A DNA stretch of 49,613 bases, taken from assembly GCA_001828605.1 (NCBI GenBank), contig MHZB01000009.1, positions 1 through 49,613 on the forward strand. Direction: 5' to 3'. Position 1 is the first letter of the stretch, and every line of letters begins with the position of its first letter. This stretch comes from Planctomycetes bacterium RIFCSPLOWO2_12_FULL_50_35. GTDB taxonomy: Bacteria > Planctomycetota > Brocadiia > Brocadiales > Bathyanammoxibiaceae. The position numbers and the translations under genes were made by a program. This document shows positions 5,353 to 48,978 of the stretch, piece by piece. A model generated the notes under the pieces. It was not told the origin of the DNA, ran no database searches, and saw nothing but the letters and a program-made list of their open reading frames with translations.

Positions 5353-6126
5353 CTATAGCTGTCCCGAGAATCCGTCCTTCCTTACACGCCAAAAGTGCAG
5401 CATTATTAATCCCCCTGCCAGACTAGGAAGAGCTATACAGTGCCAGACATAGGCACGGAGGAGCGCGGGCGCCTGAATGGACGTCCCGCCCAAAAGTGCA
5501 AAGCGTATATCGTTATCAATGGTAAAACCGAATAAATCGGCAAACGGACCTTGATAGCCTGCAAACGGTGTAGCCCCGGCCATATTCGTCCCAACCGTTA
5601 TGGCCCAGTATCCCAACTGGTCCCAAGGCAACAGGTATCCGGTAAAACTCAAGAGCAATGTGAGAACCAGGAGCACCACGCCGACAACCCAATTGAACTG
5701 TCTTGGGGACTTATAAGCACCCGTTAAAAACACCCTCAACATATGGAAGCATACCGTAATCACCATGGCGTGACCTGCCCACCGGTGGGTATTCCTCAAA
5801 AGCCTGCCAAACGGTGCGGCATTATTACTCAGGTCGATCATATCGGCGTAGGCGCGGTTTACATCCGGTGTATAGTAGAACATCAACAATATGCCCGTCA
5901 GGGTTTCGAACAAAAATATGAAGAAGGTCAAACCACCCAGGCAGAAGGTATAGCTTATGTTTAAGCTCTCTTTCCTCACGGTAGGCGGATGTATGTGCAT
6001 CCACACGTTGCCTACTATCTGGAGCACACGGTTTCTGGGCGTGTCTTCGTAGCTGTGCCGGAATACGGACTTCCATATCTCGTTTCCTGTAATTAACTCT
6101 ATAACCTTCTTCAGGTCGGGGATCAT
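5353..6126 (-). CDS. Cytochrome b6-like haem protein (N-terminal half of split cytochrome b)
   Basis: A 257-residue membrane protein carrying the two b haems of a quinol:cytochrome c/plastocyanin-type complex. His114/His128 (spacing 14) and His229/His244 (spacing 15) have the b6-type spacing. Cys62, in the segment FCLGG, aligns with Cys35 of cytochrome b6, which binds the extra covalent haem c-i, so this protein probably carries that haem too. [16 protein letters not shown] (160-175) is the conserved region after the first haem pair, and the C terminus KDGFSGQL resembles the plastid end. AGAAGGAG precedes the start. It is the second gene of the operon, 12 nt after the Rieske gene. Confidence 0.95.
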
Positions 6127-6138
6127 GCCCTACTCCTT

Positions 6139-6636
6139 CTAAATAGTCAGCACCGTAACGCGCTCTATTATTGTGCTCGTATCTACCATAAGTTTACCGT
6201 CGTCGGACAGGTGCATGTCGAAGTGGAACAGGGGTCTGGGCGCCGGTCCCGCAAAGTTCACCCCGTCCTTATAATATTTACTCCCGTGACACGGACATTC
6301 GTATATACCCTTCTCCTCCGTCCAGTGCACGGCACACCCTAAGTGCTGGCATACCATAGAGATGGCGCTAAAATTATTACCTTCCCTAACGATGAATACC
6401 CTCCTGGCCTTAAGGGTCACGACACCGTGGTCCGGAAAGTCAGCGGGGTATCCCACCGGAAACTTCTTTGAGGGTTCAAAAAGCACCTTGGGAAAGAAAA
6501 ATCCCGTAAAGCTAAATGTCTTGGCCATAAACGCCAGTGTCGTACCAAGGAATATGGTCCACCCGGCATATGTGAAAAAGCCTCTACGGCTTGTCCATGT
6601 GCTTGCTGTAACCTCTGTTTTCTCTACCTCTGCCAT
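6139..6636 (-). CDS. Rieske iron-sulfur protein
   Basis: A 165-residue Rieske subunit that moves electrons from the Qo site to a cytochrome c. The [2Fe-2S] ligands are Cys96/His98 (CQHLGC) and Cys114/His117 (CPCHGS), and Cys101 and Cys116 would form the usual disulfide. Ser119 and Tyr121 match positions linked with high-potential Rieske centres. A twin-arginine-like SRRGFF (16-21) precedes the hydrophobic anchor (about 22-48), so Tat-dependent assembly is likely. GGAG lies 6 nt before the ATG. It is the first gene of the respiratory operon. The promoter must lie in the 6637-7055 region, but I see no convincing -35/-10 pair. Confidence 0.96.
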   Translation of the reverse strand: MAEVEKTEVTASTWTSRRGFFTYAGWTIFLGTTLAFMAKTFSFTGFFFPKVLFEPSKKFPVGYPADFPDHGVVTLKARRVFIVREGNNFSAISMVCQHLGCAVHWTEEKGIYECPCHGSKYYKDGVNFAGPAPRPLFHFDMHLSDDGKLMVDTSTIIERVTVLTI

Positions 6637-10264: not shown

Positions 10265-10331
10265 GGACAGACCTAAAGGTCTGTCCCTACGTAAATGACT
10301 CTGATGTAGGGACAGGTTTTTAAACCTGTCC
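10265..10331. repeat. Outward-facing pair of REP-like hairpins
   Basis: Two 10-bp perfect stems lie back to back. The left one is 10265-10274 with 10277-10286 (loop AA), followed by CTAC (10287-10290). The right one is 10310-10319 with 10322-10331 (loop TT), preceded by GTAG. The inner arms also pair with each other (GTCCCTAC with GTAGGGAC). The pair lies between the two siroheme decarboxylase genes and may affect their shared transcript. Confidence 0.85.
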
Positions 10332-10844: not shown

Positions 10845-11090
10845 CCAACCCCACCGGATAAGCCTCTTCTGAAAACCACAGACACCTTCACAAACCGGCA
10901 ATAAGACCGACTGCGCGTACTCGACACACCATATAAATACAATCCCCTTAGCAGGACGTGAGAGGCCTATCCCAACAAACGCATCTTGTAGTTGTTCGAT
11001 TTATCGAGCCATTTGAATACACCCCATAAATGGGGCAGCTACAGGGTGGGGAATACCAGAATCTTCGCTGGCACCCAGAATGATAATTCT

Positions 11091-11114
11091 GTAGGGGCGT
11101 AATTTATTACGCCC
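11091..11114 (+). repeat. REP-like unit (GTAG foot, 9-bp stem)
   Basis: GTAG at 11091-11094 is followed directly by the perfect 9-bp stem GGGCGTAAT / ATTACGCCC (11095-11103 with 11106-11114) and loop TT. It has the same foot as the other units but a different stem. Confidence 0.8.
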
Positions 11115-11155
11115 GCACGAGGAGGGCTAGATAAATTGAACCACGACAAAATGCA

Positions 11156-11177
11156 GGTGCGCCAAGACGCACCCTAC
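11156..11177 (-). repeat. REP-like unit (GTAG foot on minus strand)
   Basis: The stem GGTGCG (11156-11161) / CGCACC (11168-11173) has a 6-nt loop and is followed by CTAC (11174-11177). On the minus strand it reads GTAG then hairpin. It is a short stem of the same class. Confidence 0.65.
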
Positions 11178-11207
11178 TGGGCTTTTATAGTCGGTATGCA
11201 AAAAGAT

Positions 11208-11232
11208 GTAGCGTGCGAGCTCATCTCGCACG
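11208..11232. terminator. REP-like hairpin that may end the ribosomal cluster
   Basis: GTAG (11208-11211) precedes the stem CGTGCGAG (11212-11219) / CTCGCACG (11225-11232) with a 5-nt loop. On the minus strand the hairpin comes 47 nt after the phosphatase stop and is followed by CTACATCTTTTTG. It could therefore stop transcription of the long leftward cluster as well as belong to the REP family. The T-run starts 7 nt after the stem, which is not ideal. Confidence 0.55.
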
Positions 11233-15028: not shown

Positions 15029-15876
15029 CAACCATTCTCCCCATTAAAAAGTTCAGGAAGAAAATCTTCTAGAATTGAGCGCACACCGAGCTGATTACAT
15101 AACCTCCTATAACCATCCATGCCCTTTTTCTTCCCCGACCTCATCATTCTTGCAGTGATAACAAGGTTCTTTGGCGTTACCGTGGGAGGGACTATCTCAT
15201 GGAATTCAACGTAATAGCCGGCTCCCCTCAAGACCTGTGCCCTCAGGGCCTCCGTAACGAGGTCCGCAAAGCGGTACAGCAAAGGACCAAAATCCGTAAG
15301 GTCATGTAACGCCTGCGCCGACCTTATCTGTCCCCTGAGCTGGTTTTGGCAACAGGGCACCACCATAATGTATCTGGCGCCTAACTTTATGCCCCTGGCT
15401 ATGGCCTCGTCCGTGGCAGAGTCGCAGGCATGAAGGGCCACAACTACGTCTACCTTCTTACCAATAGGGGCGTTGAATCCCAGTGTCTGACCAGCTGTGA
15501 AACTCATGTTATCGAAACCAAGTGAGGCTGCAATCCCCCGACACTTCCCTATAAGTGACTCGGAGATATCCACCCCGTAGAATGTGCACTCCACACCATA
15601 TAATTCCCTCAGGATACGGTTCAGGGCAAATGTAAGATAGGATTTACCGCACGAACACTCCAGGAACACCGGGTCGTCGTCCAGTATGTCTTTAATTTTG
15701 TGCAGAATGTGCGCTGAAAAACCGACCGTTTCCTGAAATTTCTTCATTCCCCTCCGGTTGACATCCCCGCCGGGGCCTTCCCATCGGAGTGGACGCAGAA
15801 AATCCCTGGAGGAAGTTAACACGCCAGAGAGCGTCTCAACGCTGTATCCCGTATCTTGTAAGACAGTGCCCATCAT
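15028..15876 (-). CDS. SAM-dependent methyltransferase inserted between rpsM and rpsK
   Basis: A 282-residue class I methyltransferase-like protein. The SAM-binding loop is [12 protein letters not shown] (72-83), with the acidic GVDIS at 101-105. [11 protein letters not shown] (149-159) and VPCCQ (173-177) are marks of the Methyltransf_32-type group, which includes eukaryotic GSTCD and METTL25-like proteins. The substrate is unknown. Its ATG shares one base with the rpsM stop and its stop shares one base with the rpsK ATG. Both junctions read GGTTGATG, so the gene is exactly fitted into a usually adjacent rpsM-rpsK pair. AAAGGG just upstream serves the start at 15876 or the next ATG at 15873. 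Its position suggests modification of a ribosomal component or assembly factor, as an inference. No transit or membrane segment is seen. Confidence 0.88.
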
Positions 15877-16256
15877 CAACCCTTTGGAGTCTCTTTCTTC
15901 CCTGCCACAGTCCTTCTTTTACCCTTTCTTGTGCGTGCGTTGGTGCTTGTCCTCTGTCCCCTCACGGGCAACCCCATTTTGTGCCGCAAGCCGCGGTAGC
16001 TGCCTATGTTCTTCAATAAGGCTATATTCTGATTCTCCTGACGCCTGAGATAACCTTCGACAACATAGTTCTTTTCTATATAGGCGCCCAGCGCACTTAA
16101 CTGGTCGTCATGCAGGTTCTTTGCACGAAGGTTCTCGTCTATATTCAGCTCCTTTAGAATCTTCTTGGACAAGGTCCTTCCTATACCGTAAATATAAGTA
16201 AGCGAAATAAAGATTGGTTTATCAGCAGGTATGTCTATTCCCGCAATCCTGGGCAT
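15876..16256 (-). CDS. rpsM: 30S ribosomal protein S13
   Basis: S13 of 126 residues, at the head of the small subunit and in contact with 50S and P-site tRNA. ARIAGIDIP-type start (MPRIAGIDIPADKP), YIYGIGRTLSKKIL and the basic tail GQRTSTNARTRKGKRR are present. It follows rpmJ by 18 nt. Its stop overlaps the start of the methyltransferase gene, where rpsK would be expected. Confidence 0.98.
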   Translation of the reverse strand: MPRIAGIDIPADKPIFISLTYIYGIGRTLSKKILKELNIDENLRAKNLHDDQLSALGAYIEKNYVVEGYLRRQENQNIALLKNIGSYRGLRHKMGLPVRGQRTSTNARTRKGKRRTVAGKKETPKG

Positions 16257-45316: not shown

Positions 45317-47329
45317 ATGTCCAGAAAGAATCCCACTTCTCCATTATTGATACCTCTGAAAAACACCAAAAAAACGTATAATAATGAAACAACCTGTTAT
45401 TGCGAGTCCGCCTCAGGCGGAGAAGCAATCTCGTGTTGTTTGTTGGAAATTACTTATGGGATTGCTTCGTCGCTTTCACTCCTCGCAATGACGGTCTATT
45501 TTGCATCTTTCAGGGGTCTCTTATTATTTCTAACACTCTTTACTCTTTTCTGGCTGACCCCGCTGTCAGCACAAACAGGCAAGACCTCAGCCCAGGAAGA
45601 TTTTGTGCATCTTCTAGCACATGCCGTTGAATCTATAAAACAAGGTAAGTACGATAACGCACTTGTCGCCTTTGACAAGGCCCTGGAGATCAAACCCGAT
45701 GATTACAAGGCATGGGCACATAAGGCCCAGCTGCTCGACCAAATAGGGCGATACAAAGAGGCCGTAGAGGCATATGACAAGGCCACGAGCTTGAACCCCC
45801 TCTTCTACGAGGCGTGGATAAATAAGGGCCTGGCGCTGGTGCGGGTCCAGGAAAACCATGAAGAACAGGTAGAGGCGGCAATCAGTGCCTACGACAAGGC
45901 GATAGAGATTAGACCCCGCTCTTATCAGGCGTATCTCAACAAGGGCAATGCCCTCACCAGGCTGCGAAAATATGAAGAGGCGCTCAAGACATACGATAAG
46001 GCCATCGAGATAGACCCAAACCACCATGCGGCCTACACGGATAAGGGGCTTCTATTGGGCGACATGGGGAGAAATCAAGAGGCGATAGACACACTTGAAA
46101 GGGCTATCTGGATCAACCCCAAGTCATACTTCACCTGGACAAACATTGGGATGGCGTTGTTCCGAATGGGCCGGTACGAAGAGGCCGTCAAGACCTTTAC
46201 AACCGCCTCGGAAATAAACCCCAAGGACTACGGCCCGCTGACCAACAAGGGTCTGGCACTGGTGCGGCTCGGTCGTTACGAGGAGGCACTAAAGGCATAC
46301 GACAAGGCCCTTGAACTGCTGCCGACGTCGTACGAGACCTGGTACAATAAGGGTTTCCTTGCAATTGAACTGAACAAGTATGAAGAAGCCAACAGTGCCT
46401 TTGACAAGGCAGTGGAGATTCGCCCCGACTACCTGAAGGCATGGGTAAGTAAGGGCGACGTACTGTCTAGAATGAGCAGGGAAAAGGAGGCCAGAAATGC
46501 CTATGAAAAGGCCGCGGAGATTACACCGGATACGCCCGAGGCCTGGGTAAGCCAGGGTGACGCCCTATCACATATAGACAGACACGAAGATGCCCTGAAG
46601 GCCTTCAACAAGGCCGCCGCCATGGCACCCAACATATACGAGGCCTGGCTCGGCAAGGCAAATGAATTAATAAAACTCAACAGGTATCAGGAATCCCTCA
46701 GCGCCCTTAACCAGGCCGCCCAGCTCAGGCCAAATACATACGAGGTCTGGTACAACACCGGCACTGTGTGCATGCGCATTACAAAATATAATGATGCACT
46801 CAAGGCATTTGACAGGGCCTTACAGATAAACCCCGCTTCACAAGAAGCATGGTATAACAAGGCGCTGATACTCGGCGAGACCTTGGGCCAACCGGCAGAC
46901 GCACTACTCGCCATTCAAAAGGCCACTTCCCTCGAGACCCAGTCAGCTCGGGCCTGGGACTACCAGGGTATCATACTCAGCGACCTGAAACGCTATGACC
47001 ATGCCCTGCAGGCATTCCAGAAGGTCATTGAGATTAACCCAAACTTTTTCCCAGCCTGGCACAATATGGGCATGGCACTCGACTCTATGGGGAAAACGGC
47101 AGAGGCAATTGATGCGTACAAGAAATCCCTGCATATAAACCCAAGTTTCGACATCGCCTGGTACAACATGGCATCCGCCCAGGCGGCGCTTAAGGATAAG
47201 GATGGCGCACTCGATTCCTTAAGACATGCAATAGACCTGAACCCGCAGATGCGGGACTGGGCAAAGACCAATCCTGACTTCGCACCGTTCCTCAACGACC
47301 CGGACTTTGCAAGAATCCTGGGGCGGTGA
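45317..47329 (+). CDS. Exported 16-repeat TPR protein with a MITE in its signal-peptide region
   Basis: A 670-residue open frame with a good ribosome binding site (GGGAGG) before the ATG. Residues from about 95 to 650 form 16 consecutive tetratricopeptide repeats, mostly with the motif YDKA-EI-P. They are protein-binding scaffolds, and no enzyme domain is present. A 172-bp element (45349-45520) lies in codons 11-68. Without it the N terminus would be MSRKNPTSP followed by LLFLTLFTLFWL and TPLSA, a classical signal peptide. With it, translation either gives a long leader before the same hydrophobic core or restarts at the element-derived ATG at 45488 (residue 58), which has no clear ribosome binding site. 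Downstream DNA is non-coding and repeat-rich. Confidence 0.9.
   Translation: MSRKNPTSPLLIPLKNTKKTYNNETTCYCESASGGEAISCCLLEITYGIASSLSLLAMTVYFASFRGLLLFLTLFTLFWLTPLSAQTGKTSAQEDFVHLLAHAVESIKQGKYDNALVAFDKALEIKPDDYKAWAHKAQLLDQIGRYKEAVEAYDKATSLNPLFYEAWINKGLALVRVQENHEEQVEAAISAYDKAIEIRPRSYQAYLNKGNALTRLRKYEEALKTYDKAIEIDPNHHAAYTDKGLLLGDMGRNQEAIDTLERAIWINPKSYFTWTNIGMALFRMGRYEEAVKTFTTASEINPKDYGPLTNKGLALVRLGRYEEALKAYDKALELLPTSYETWYNKGFLAIELNKYEEANSAFDKAVEIRPDYLKAWVSKGDVLSRMSREKEARNAYEKAAEITPDTPEAWVSQGDALSHIDRHEDALKAFNKAAAMAPNIYEAWLGKANELIKLNRYQESLSALNQAAQLRPNTYEVWYNTGTVCMRITKYNDALKAFDRALQINPASQEAWYNKALILGETLGQPADALLAIQKATSLETQSARAWDYQGIILSDLKRYDHALQAFQKVIEINPNFFPAWHNMGMALDSMGKTAEAIDAYKKSLHINPSFDIAWYNMASAQAALKDKDGALDSLRHAIDLNPQMRDWAKTNPDFAPFLNDPDFARILGR
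45349..45520. mobile_element. MITE-like element inserted in frame in the TPR gene
   Basis: The element is 172 bp. Its ends are imperfect terminal inverted repeats: GATACCTCTGAAAAA on the left and TCTTTCAGGGGTCTC on the right (12 of the first 14 positions pair). It is flanked by the direct repeat TTATT (45344-45348 and 45521-45525), a 5-bp target duplication. Inside are subterminal inverted repeats GTTATTGCGAG (45396-45406) / CTCGCAATGAC (45482-45492), GAAGCAATC (45422-45430) / GATTGCTTC (45460-45468), and a small hairpin TCCGCC/GGCGGA. There is no transposase, so mobility would need a partner elsewhere. Element plus duplication adds 177 bp, exactly 59 codons. Confidence 0.85.
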
Positions 47330-47386
47330 CACTTAGAAAGTTCTGAAAAAGCCTCTTAAAGTAAGTTGTCATTCTGAGCGAAGTGT

Positions 47387-47439
47387 GTAGCGTGGCAGTT
47401 TACTGCCACGTTGGACGTTGGAGCAAGCTCCAACGCTAC
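47387..47439. repeat. REPIN-like composite palindrome 1
   Basis: GTAG (47387-47390) and CTAC (47436-47439) bound two hairpins: CGTGGCAGT/ACTGCCACG (47391-47399 with 47402-47410, loop TT) and CGTTGGAGC/GCTCCAACG (47416-47424 with 47427-47435, loop AA). Both stems are 9-bp perfect. Confidence 0.88.
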
Positions 47440-47483
47440 ATTCTTTCCGCCCAAGGTGGATGCGCCTCTGGCACAAATCCTGA

Positions 47484-47546
47484 TGGTAGACAACGAAGTT
47501 TTACTTCGTTGAACACATCAACGACCATAAAGGTCGTTGTCTACCA
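47484..47546. repeat. REPIN-like composite palindrome 2
   Basis: A 12-bp outer inverted repeat TGGTAGACAACG / CGTTGTCTACCA encloses stems CAACGAAGT/ACTTCGTTG (47491-47499 with 47503-47511) and CAACGACC/GGTCGTTG (47519-47526 with 47532-47539, loop ATAAA). Confidence 0.88.
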
Positions 47547-47564
47547 GAGACGGCATTTTGTGTC

Positions 47565-47616
47565 GTAGGGACAGCCCTTGTAGCTGTCCGCGGACAGGGA
47601 TAAACCCTGTCCCTAC
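47565..47616. repeat. REPIN-like composite palindrome 3
   Basis: A 10-bp outer inverted repeat GTAGGGACAG / CTGTCCCTAC encloses GGACAGC/GCTGTCC (47569-47575 with 47583-47589) and GGACAGGG/CCCTGTCC (47592-47599 with 47605-47612, loop ATAAA). The stems resemble those of the pair at 10265-10331. Confidence 0.87.
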
Positions 47617-47635
47617 ATCAAAATTACAATAAACA

Positions 47636-47658
47636 GGTGTGATAAATCGCACCCCTAC
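47636..47658 (-). repeat. Single REP-like hairpin
   Basis: GGTGTGAT (47636-47643) / ATCGCACC (47646-47653) with loop AA, one G-U pair, followed by CTAC (47655-47658). On the minus strand it reads GTAG then hairpin. Confidence 0.7.
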
Positions 47659-48749: not shown

Positions 48750-48852
48750 CCCGCTCTCCAAGTGCATCTTGCGCCTTGTGTTGAAATGACGCTGCAACCA
48801 AAACTCATAATCAATTAACCTTCTTCTCCTAAAGGACCGCTTCGATAACCAA

Positions 48853-48978
48853 TGTCATTCTGAGCAAAGCAATCTGATTTTTGTAGCGTCAGGTCTCCGT
48901 ACCTGACGTTTTTGAGTGCGTCCGATGCGGAGATCGGACGCTACATTCTTCGGTTGCTTCGCCCTTTCTATAGTGACA
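48853..48978. repeat. Nested repeat with a REPIN-like core
   Basis: The outer ends are TGTCA (48853-48857) and TGACA (48974-48978). The core from 48883 to 48944 is bounded by GTAGCGT/ACGCTAC and holds CGTCAGGT/ACCTGACG (48887-48894 with 48901-48908, loop CTCCGT) and CGTCCGAT/ATCGGACG (48919-48926 with 48933-48940, loop GCGGAG). The flanks CATTCTGAGCAAAGCAATC and ATTCTTCGGTTGCTTCGC are the spreading repeat also seen at the left edge of the window and near 47368. Confidence 0.8.

Follow-up and report, generated by a model that had tools for sequence, protein, structure and literature searches.

The window, by which we mean the whole stretch of 49,613 nucleotides analyzed here, carries an array of GTAG-footed hairpins at positions 47387-47658, together with related units elsewhere. 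The REP hairpins and REPINs were located as follows (dimeric units are given without a strand).

47387..47439: REPIN (head-to-head REP dimer) of the GTAGCGT family, mid-stems GGC and TGG
47387..47410, + strand: REP hairpin GTAGCGTGGCAGTTTACTGCCACG, the first half of the 47387..47439 REPIN
47416..47439, - strand: REP hairpin GTAGCGTTGGAGCTTGCTCCAACG, with 19 identical copies in the genome
47486..47544: REPIN of the GTAGACAACG family, mid-stems AAG and ACC
47565..47616: REPIN of the GTAGGGACAG family, mid-stems CC and GG
47636..47658, - strand: single REP hairpin GTAGGGGTGCGATTTATCACACC with one mismatch, from direct reading
48883..48944: REPIN of the GTAGCGTC subfamily, mid-stems AGG and CGA, loops CTCCG
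10265..10331: tail-to-tail REP pair (GTAG inside) of the GTAGGGACAG family
10988..11042: REPIN of the GTAGTTG/GTAGCTG family, partly decayed; the resident RAYT of this family is on contig C63
11091..11114, + strand: REP hairpin GTAGGGGCGTAATTTATTACGCCC
11156..11177, - strand: REP hairpin GTAGGGTGCGTCTTGGCGCACC, from direct reading
11208..11232, + strand: REP hairpin GTAGCGTGCGAGCTCATCTCGCACG, of the family found beside the RAYT on contig C66

The array holds three REP families plus one GTAGGGGT unit. An initial annotation of this DNA had described composites laid out as GTAG-hairpin-hairpin-CTAC, and both direct reading and our scan showed this layout in all three composites of the array. It had also described perfectly paired stems of 8 to 12 bp. 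The stem at 47565, however, has only 7 paired bases, and the single hairpin at 47636-47658 is not perfectly paired. The stems, which were said to differ almost completely, do so across composites: they look unrelated because each composite comes from a different family and only the foot is common. Inside a composite this is not the case, as the two hairpins share GTAG and the next 3 to 6 stem bases and diverge from there to the loop. Of the related units proposed elsewhere in the window, 48883-48944 is indeed a composite, 10265-10331 has the opposite layout, and 11091-11232 does contain GTAG hairpins, yet these are three unrelated singles. The composite at 10988-11042 had been overlooked. The outer form seen at 47387..47439 recurs in 31 dimers genome-wide. 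A comparison with Rfam gave no match for the array, and tRNAs were the sole matches in the window. Intrinsic terminators were considered and rejected, because the hairpins have a conserved foot and direct reading showed no T run after the array hairpins. REPINs are often located within or next to a second repeat, GTCATTCTGAG..CGAAGAATCT, in the window at 47372-47386 and 48850-48960. Its motif has 239 matches genome-wide, and the repeat is found within 100 nt of 126 of 553 GTAG hairpins, compared to 9% of random intergenic places.

We scanned 1.94 Mb of the 1.99-Mb genome, a 90% complete MAG, for hairpins with a perfect stem of at least 8 bp and employed ten dinucleotide-shuffled genomes as a control. 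The GTAG foot was present on 500 of 1,033 perfect hairpins, compared to 5 to 13 of 161 to 191 in the shuffles (on average about 9 of 174). This corresponds to a more than 50-fold enrichment over shuffled DNA, the comparison that the initial annotation had proposed. Among intergenic hairpins, 402 of 658 had the GTAG foot, which was seen at 5.6% of random intergenic places; approximately 80% of all GTAG hairpins (402/500) were intergenic. The bare pattern GTAG N18-48 CTAC was not enriched (709 occurrences versus 989 in the reversed control). Since the bare spacing is unenriched and the stem-aware test is positive, the signal lies in the foot and the stem combined. The scan yielded 599 distinct hairpins, which account for 0.79% of the DNA scanned and for 4.6% of its intergenic part. 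Several were present in multiple identical copies, such as GTAGCCGCAGGC.. (20 copies), GTAGCGTTGGAGC.. (19 copies), and GTAGGGGCAATTC.. (18 copies). Adjacent hairpins were oriented head to head in 83 of 143 pairs, mostly of the same family. Moreover, 703 of 775 units were free of mismatches, and the conserved bulge of E. coli-type (group 2) REPs was absent. The hairpins have the attributes by which GTAG REPs and REPINs are recognized, namely, the GTAG foot, high copy number and a mainly intergenic location, inverted doublets, and RAYTs with cognate REPs. Together, these counts confirm that the GTAG hairpins are real and occur far above chance.

At least eight families coexist in the genome, each defined by GTAG together with the first 2 to 6 stem bases. 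Named by GTAG and the bases that follow, these are GTAGGGGC, GTAGCGT, GTAGACAACG, GTAGCCGC, GTAGGGACAG, GTAGGGGT, GTAGGGTGCG, GTAGTTGC/GTAGCTGC, and GTAGGTCA. Within a family, the foot and the basal stem are constant and about three middle pairs are variable, while the loops are often TTYA (TTTA or TTCA) or CTTG. The earlier impression of a conserved structure with an unconserved sequence is therefore accurate for the middle pairs but not for the foot, the basal stem, and often the loop. Fully palindromic single hairpins of the type GTAGGGGC..GCCCCTAC (for example, C3:1475-1502) carry GTAG on both strands, 92 of them with both feet, and belong to the largest family.

We then selected 146 GTAGCGT hairpins by foot and base only, so that pairing in the middle was not required. 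All three middle pairs were intact in 121 of these, in five triplets only, and 17 of the 146 had one mismatch. In an alignment of 32 distinct 24-nt sequences, 94.5% of the cells were paired, compared to 82.6% after shuffling and at most 57% when slid. Compensatory changes, for which a test had been suggested, were evident insofar as the three mid-stem pairs showed double changes, with both sides altered; however, no individual site was seen to have been re-paired. The five triplets, the one-sided mismatches, and the covariation together indicate multiplication of a few perfect types, followed by decay. Locus-by-locus compensatory evolution was rejected as the main cause because the 121 fully paired hairpins share those five triplets. 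The retention of structure over sequence is the outcome of copying a few old perfect stem types and not of site-by-site compensation.

The genome encodes the Y1/RAYT transposases for which a search had been advised. Six RAYT ORFs (Pfam Y1_Tnp) were detected, on contigs C66, C38, C95, C63, C81, and C59, besides fragments; no RAYT gene was found on the contig of the window. NCBIfam NF047646 (REP-associated tyrosine transposase) was the top match of all six ORFs and scored above the cut-off in three. In an alignment of nine RAYTs, the HxH motif and two tyrosines were invariant. GTAG flanks were present at five of the six ORFs. Hairpins of the GTAGCGTG type lie to either side of the C66 RAYT and also of L147, its 64% homolog in another genus. 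The C63 RAYT is flanked by GTAGTTGC/GTAGCTGC hairpins, and the C38 RAYT is adjoined by a GTAGCGGCAGGGC hairpin. Inside the reading frames of the C81 (about 5779-6342) and C59 (about 200-770) RAYTs, REPs of the GTAGGGGC family or a whole REPIN lie just past the HUH motif and are translated in frame as VGAGPRACP..GQPQGVAPT and VGANGRSPL. The C95 RAYT (15100-16200, L003) is flanked by a non-GTAG family made of GGAGTCCA and a variable stem. This family comprises 14 perfect copies of 10 sequences and also has a constant base and a variable mid-stem.

In relatives, RAYTs were flanked by GTAGCCGC (L162, L165, and L167), GTAGGGCAA (L155-L158 and L164), GTAGACAACG (L151, in G022), or GTAGCGTC (L148, in G008). 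The GTAGACAACG-flanked RAYT in the relative G022 (C25, 29909-34656) is located about 4 kb from a hydrazine synthase alpha gene. In other phyla, GTAG hairpins flank RAYTs at 35 of 80 loci. When foot-family labels were set manually according to the flanking hairpins, a tree of 46 RAYTs required 27 foot-family changes, compared to a mean of 36.0 and a minimum of 32 in 300 label shuffles. This result, below all 300 shuffles, shows that foot families track RAYT phylogeny. As for the families of the array, a cognate RAYT of GTAGCGT is resident, that of GTAGACAACG was found only in a relative, and that of GTAGGGACAG was not found anywhere searched. No resident RAYT was identified for GTAGCCGC or GTAGACAACG in the 90% complete MAG, both having theirs in relatives only, and none was assigned to the GTAGGGTGCG family. 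Loss of a RAYT with its REPs left behind is known in Pseudomonas (PMC3686654). The REP/REPIN interpretation of the initial annotation thus gains support from the enrichment of the GTAG foot, the families, and the RAYTs flanked by GTAG families in this genome and its relatives. Of the two explanations offered there for the diversity, several RAYT types or one tolerant type, the former is the better, since different RAYTs have different flanking foot families.

We next compared the two hairpins of each dimer. None of the 73 same-family head-to-head dimers of the genome was homotypic, compared to 12.8 expected when partners were re-dealt within families. Because copies of a dimer are not independent, each distinct combination was also counted once; this gave 0 of 30 homodimers versus 1.84 expected, a difference that is not significant within this genome (P = 0.135). 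The case is stronger in a wider survey of this genome and its relatives, in which, as counted on the listed sequences, 2 of 182 listed dimers were homotypic. All 75 listed GTAGCCGC dimers were mixed, no homodimer occurred among 66 GTAGCGT dimers (both sets include those of the genome under study), and 39 of 41 listed GTAGGGCAA dimers were not homodimers, the two homodimers both being in G035. At RAYTs of other phyla, 14 of 14 dimers were mixed. Linkers varied among dimer copies. An assembly artefact as the reason for the absent homodimers was rejected: six genomes of at most 30 contigs hold 46 of the listed dimers and both of the homodimers found, so such a bias is insufficient. Assembly bias may lower counts in fragmented MAGs. 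As a near-rule, paired hairpins share the foot and the base and almost never the mid-stem.

Folding was predicted for the dimers as single-stranded DNA. A hypothetical homodimer was predicted to fold into one long hairpin at -33.8 kcal/mol, compared to -18.0 kcal/mol as two hairpins, whereas a real heterodimer gave -19.1 versus -17.9 kcal/mol as two hairpins. The halves nevertheless remain paired at the foot and base in the predicted minimum of 28 of 63 real dimers. The contiguous foot and base common to partners measures 7 to 11 nt, below the 16 to 20 bp to which deletion has been linked in the literature (PMC3733652).

We consider it highly probable (roughly 0.86) that the array has arisen by accumulation of REPINs belonging to three RAYT specificities that have GTAG in common. 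According to our model, a REPIN is a short non-autonomous element in which two inversely oriented REP hairpins carry GTAG at the outer ends. RAYT transposases (TnpA-REP, HUH Y1) would act on its folded single strands and copy it, at present or in the past. Each RAYT lineage would recognize GTAG and its own basal stem, and probably the loop too. About three mid-stem pairs would not be read, and any perfectly paired sequence could serve there. Partners would keep the recognized base but would have to differ in the mid-stem, as a homodimer would fold as one hairpin of about 23 bp and be lost or become unreadable. The families of the three composites would then represent three RAYT specificities with the foot alone in common. 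More tentatively, and with the odds somewhat against it, a general two-part rule may apply to REPINs: each mid-stem has to pair within its own hairpin and to avoid pairing with the partner hairpin. The foot, base, and loop would be the recognized parts, leaving the mid-stem as a free identity segment whose sole job would be to prevent collapse of the two hairpins into one.

Alternatively, the hairpins could be kept for a function in RNA, as mRNA 3' ends, terminators, or processing sites, their stems being changed at each locus by compensatory mutation. The largely intergenic location and the covarying mid-stem pairs are compatible with such a function, and RNA roles for REPs have been proposed (PMC3733652). 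However, most families leave the GTAG foot unpaired, and it would be superfluous, a small number of stem types recurs across many loci with departures in the form of one-sided mismatches, and the genes neighboring dimers are oriented much like ORF pairs in general; we regard this explanation as very improbable. Template switching between arms during replication could also have created the stem diversity. A hybrid hairpin in the genome itself (C60:2666-2718, L064) has an arm converted to match its partner, where two changes in three bases extend the outer complementarity from 7 to 18 nt, and further converted-arm hybrids occur at G002:C4:113517, G004:C142:2760, and G035:C1:454736. These four hybrids, with an arm rewritten to match the partner, are likely a trace of template switching, and stems that are identical except for a flipped loop (CTTG/CAAG) also favor the process. 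As the source of the diversity it is nevertheless improbable: conversion is uncommon (4 hairpins in about 180 dimers) and yields homotypy, the opposite of the rule, and the converted arms copy existing stems and make no new ones.

Another possibility concerns one step of our model and not the identity of the REPINs, namely, that the transposase itself needs two unlike hairpins as ends, rather than fold competition or instability excluding like ones. E. coli BIMEs, which join y and z REPs (PMC8266576), and the nearly universal heterotypy of the surveyed dimers agree with this proposal. Conversely, a RAYT gene is often bracketed by two copies of one mid-stem, which lie at a distance from each other (AGGC/AGGC at L162; also L155 and L157), and the two homodimers in G035 do exist. 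A demand for unlike ends seems unlikely, although it is not far-fetched.

A 15-nt palindrome, TCCGCCTNAGGCGGA, was often observed inside REP hairpins. The genome contains 72 copies (71 in the 1.94 Mb scanned), one of which is at 45407-45421 of the window. There are 72 to 259 copies in six of nine genomes of the host family and 88 in G009, 103 in one distant planctomycete, and hardly any in other anammox genomes. An intact counterpart of the site is present elsewhere in the same genome for 57 of the 71 copies. The palindrome takes the place of 5 to 7 nt in 49 of the 57, most often CAACG, CAAGCTG, or CGACCG; at least ten different segments are replaced, and in 43 of the 57 the segment starts with C and ends with G. 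The window copy replaces CGAAGC of TTATTGCGAG[CGAAGC]GAAGCAATCT, which occurs intact nine times elsewhere (one mismatch per flank allowed). Spread together with the host REPIN may account for some copies, and the independent events would therefore be fewer. No description of the palindrome was found in the literature searched, and we flag its substitution inside REPs as more novel than the REPINs themselves.

GTAG repeats have been assigned to 24 families, with Planctomycetes among the hosts, and their dimers, heterodimers, family-specific RAYTs, and intragenic copies have been described (Di Nocera et al. 2013, PMC3733652). The units reported here resemble this GTAG-tagged REP superfamily, which includes SMAG of Stenotrophomonas maltophilia, in the terminal GTAG, perfect stems of 6 to 13 bp, several families per genome, head-to-head dimers, family-specific RAYTs, intragenic REPs, and a preference for heterodimers in many families, the likeness being one of general features. 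They differ in the anammox-type planctomycete host and in a heterotypy that is nearly complete across families and genera. As GTAG families, heterodimers, and RAYTs were described in 2013, our REPINs belong to an already known family. Less usual are the number of REP families hosted together and the partners that agree at the base while almost always differing in the mid-stem. The REPIN/RAYT systems of Pseudomonas fluorescens (Bertels and Rainey 2011, PMC3116915; Nunvar et al. 2013, PMC3686654) likewise have inverted doublets and several classes, each tied to a cognate RAYT and able to outlive its loss. In P. putida and P. entomophila, GTAG-1 dimers are mostly homodimers (PMC3733652), whereas homodimers are almost absent here. 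E. coli REPs and BIMEs, with TnpA-REP, share the GTAG, a conserved lower and variable upper stem, and unlike partners (y and z), but have a conserved bulge where the stems here are perfect (PMC8266576). The parts that GTAG, stem, and loop play in recognition vary from one system to another, and the loops TTTA and TTCA found here fit the T-T-N-A requirement of the group 3 REPMb (PMC8266576).

This genome encodes hydrazine synthase alpha (HZS_alpha, PF18582), as do 38 of 58 relatives, which points to an anammox planctomycete as the host. We take its order to be Brocadiales. The results add an anammox lineage rich in REPs, in which 2 Mb accommodate at least eight coexisting families and several RAYTs. 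They also expose a nested palindrome that substitutes bases within REPs. The preference for heterodimers was said in 2013 to have "no obvious explanation," and protection from SbcCD was suggested (PMC3733652). What deserves testing is the partner rule, which is close to absolute across families and genera: with two homodimers in 182 dimers, it makes the heterodimer question directly testable. If true, the two-part rule would answer why heterodimers prevail.
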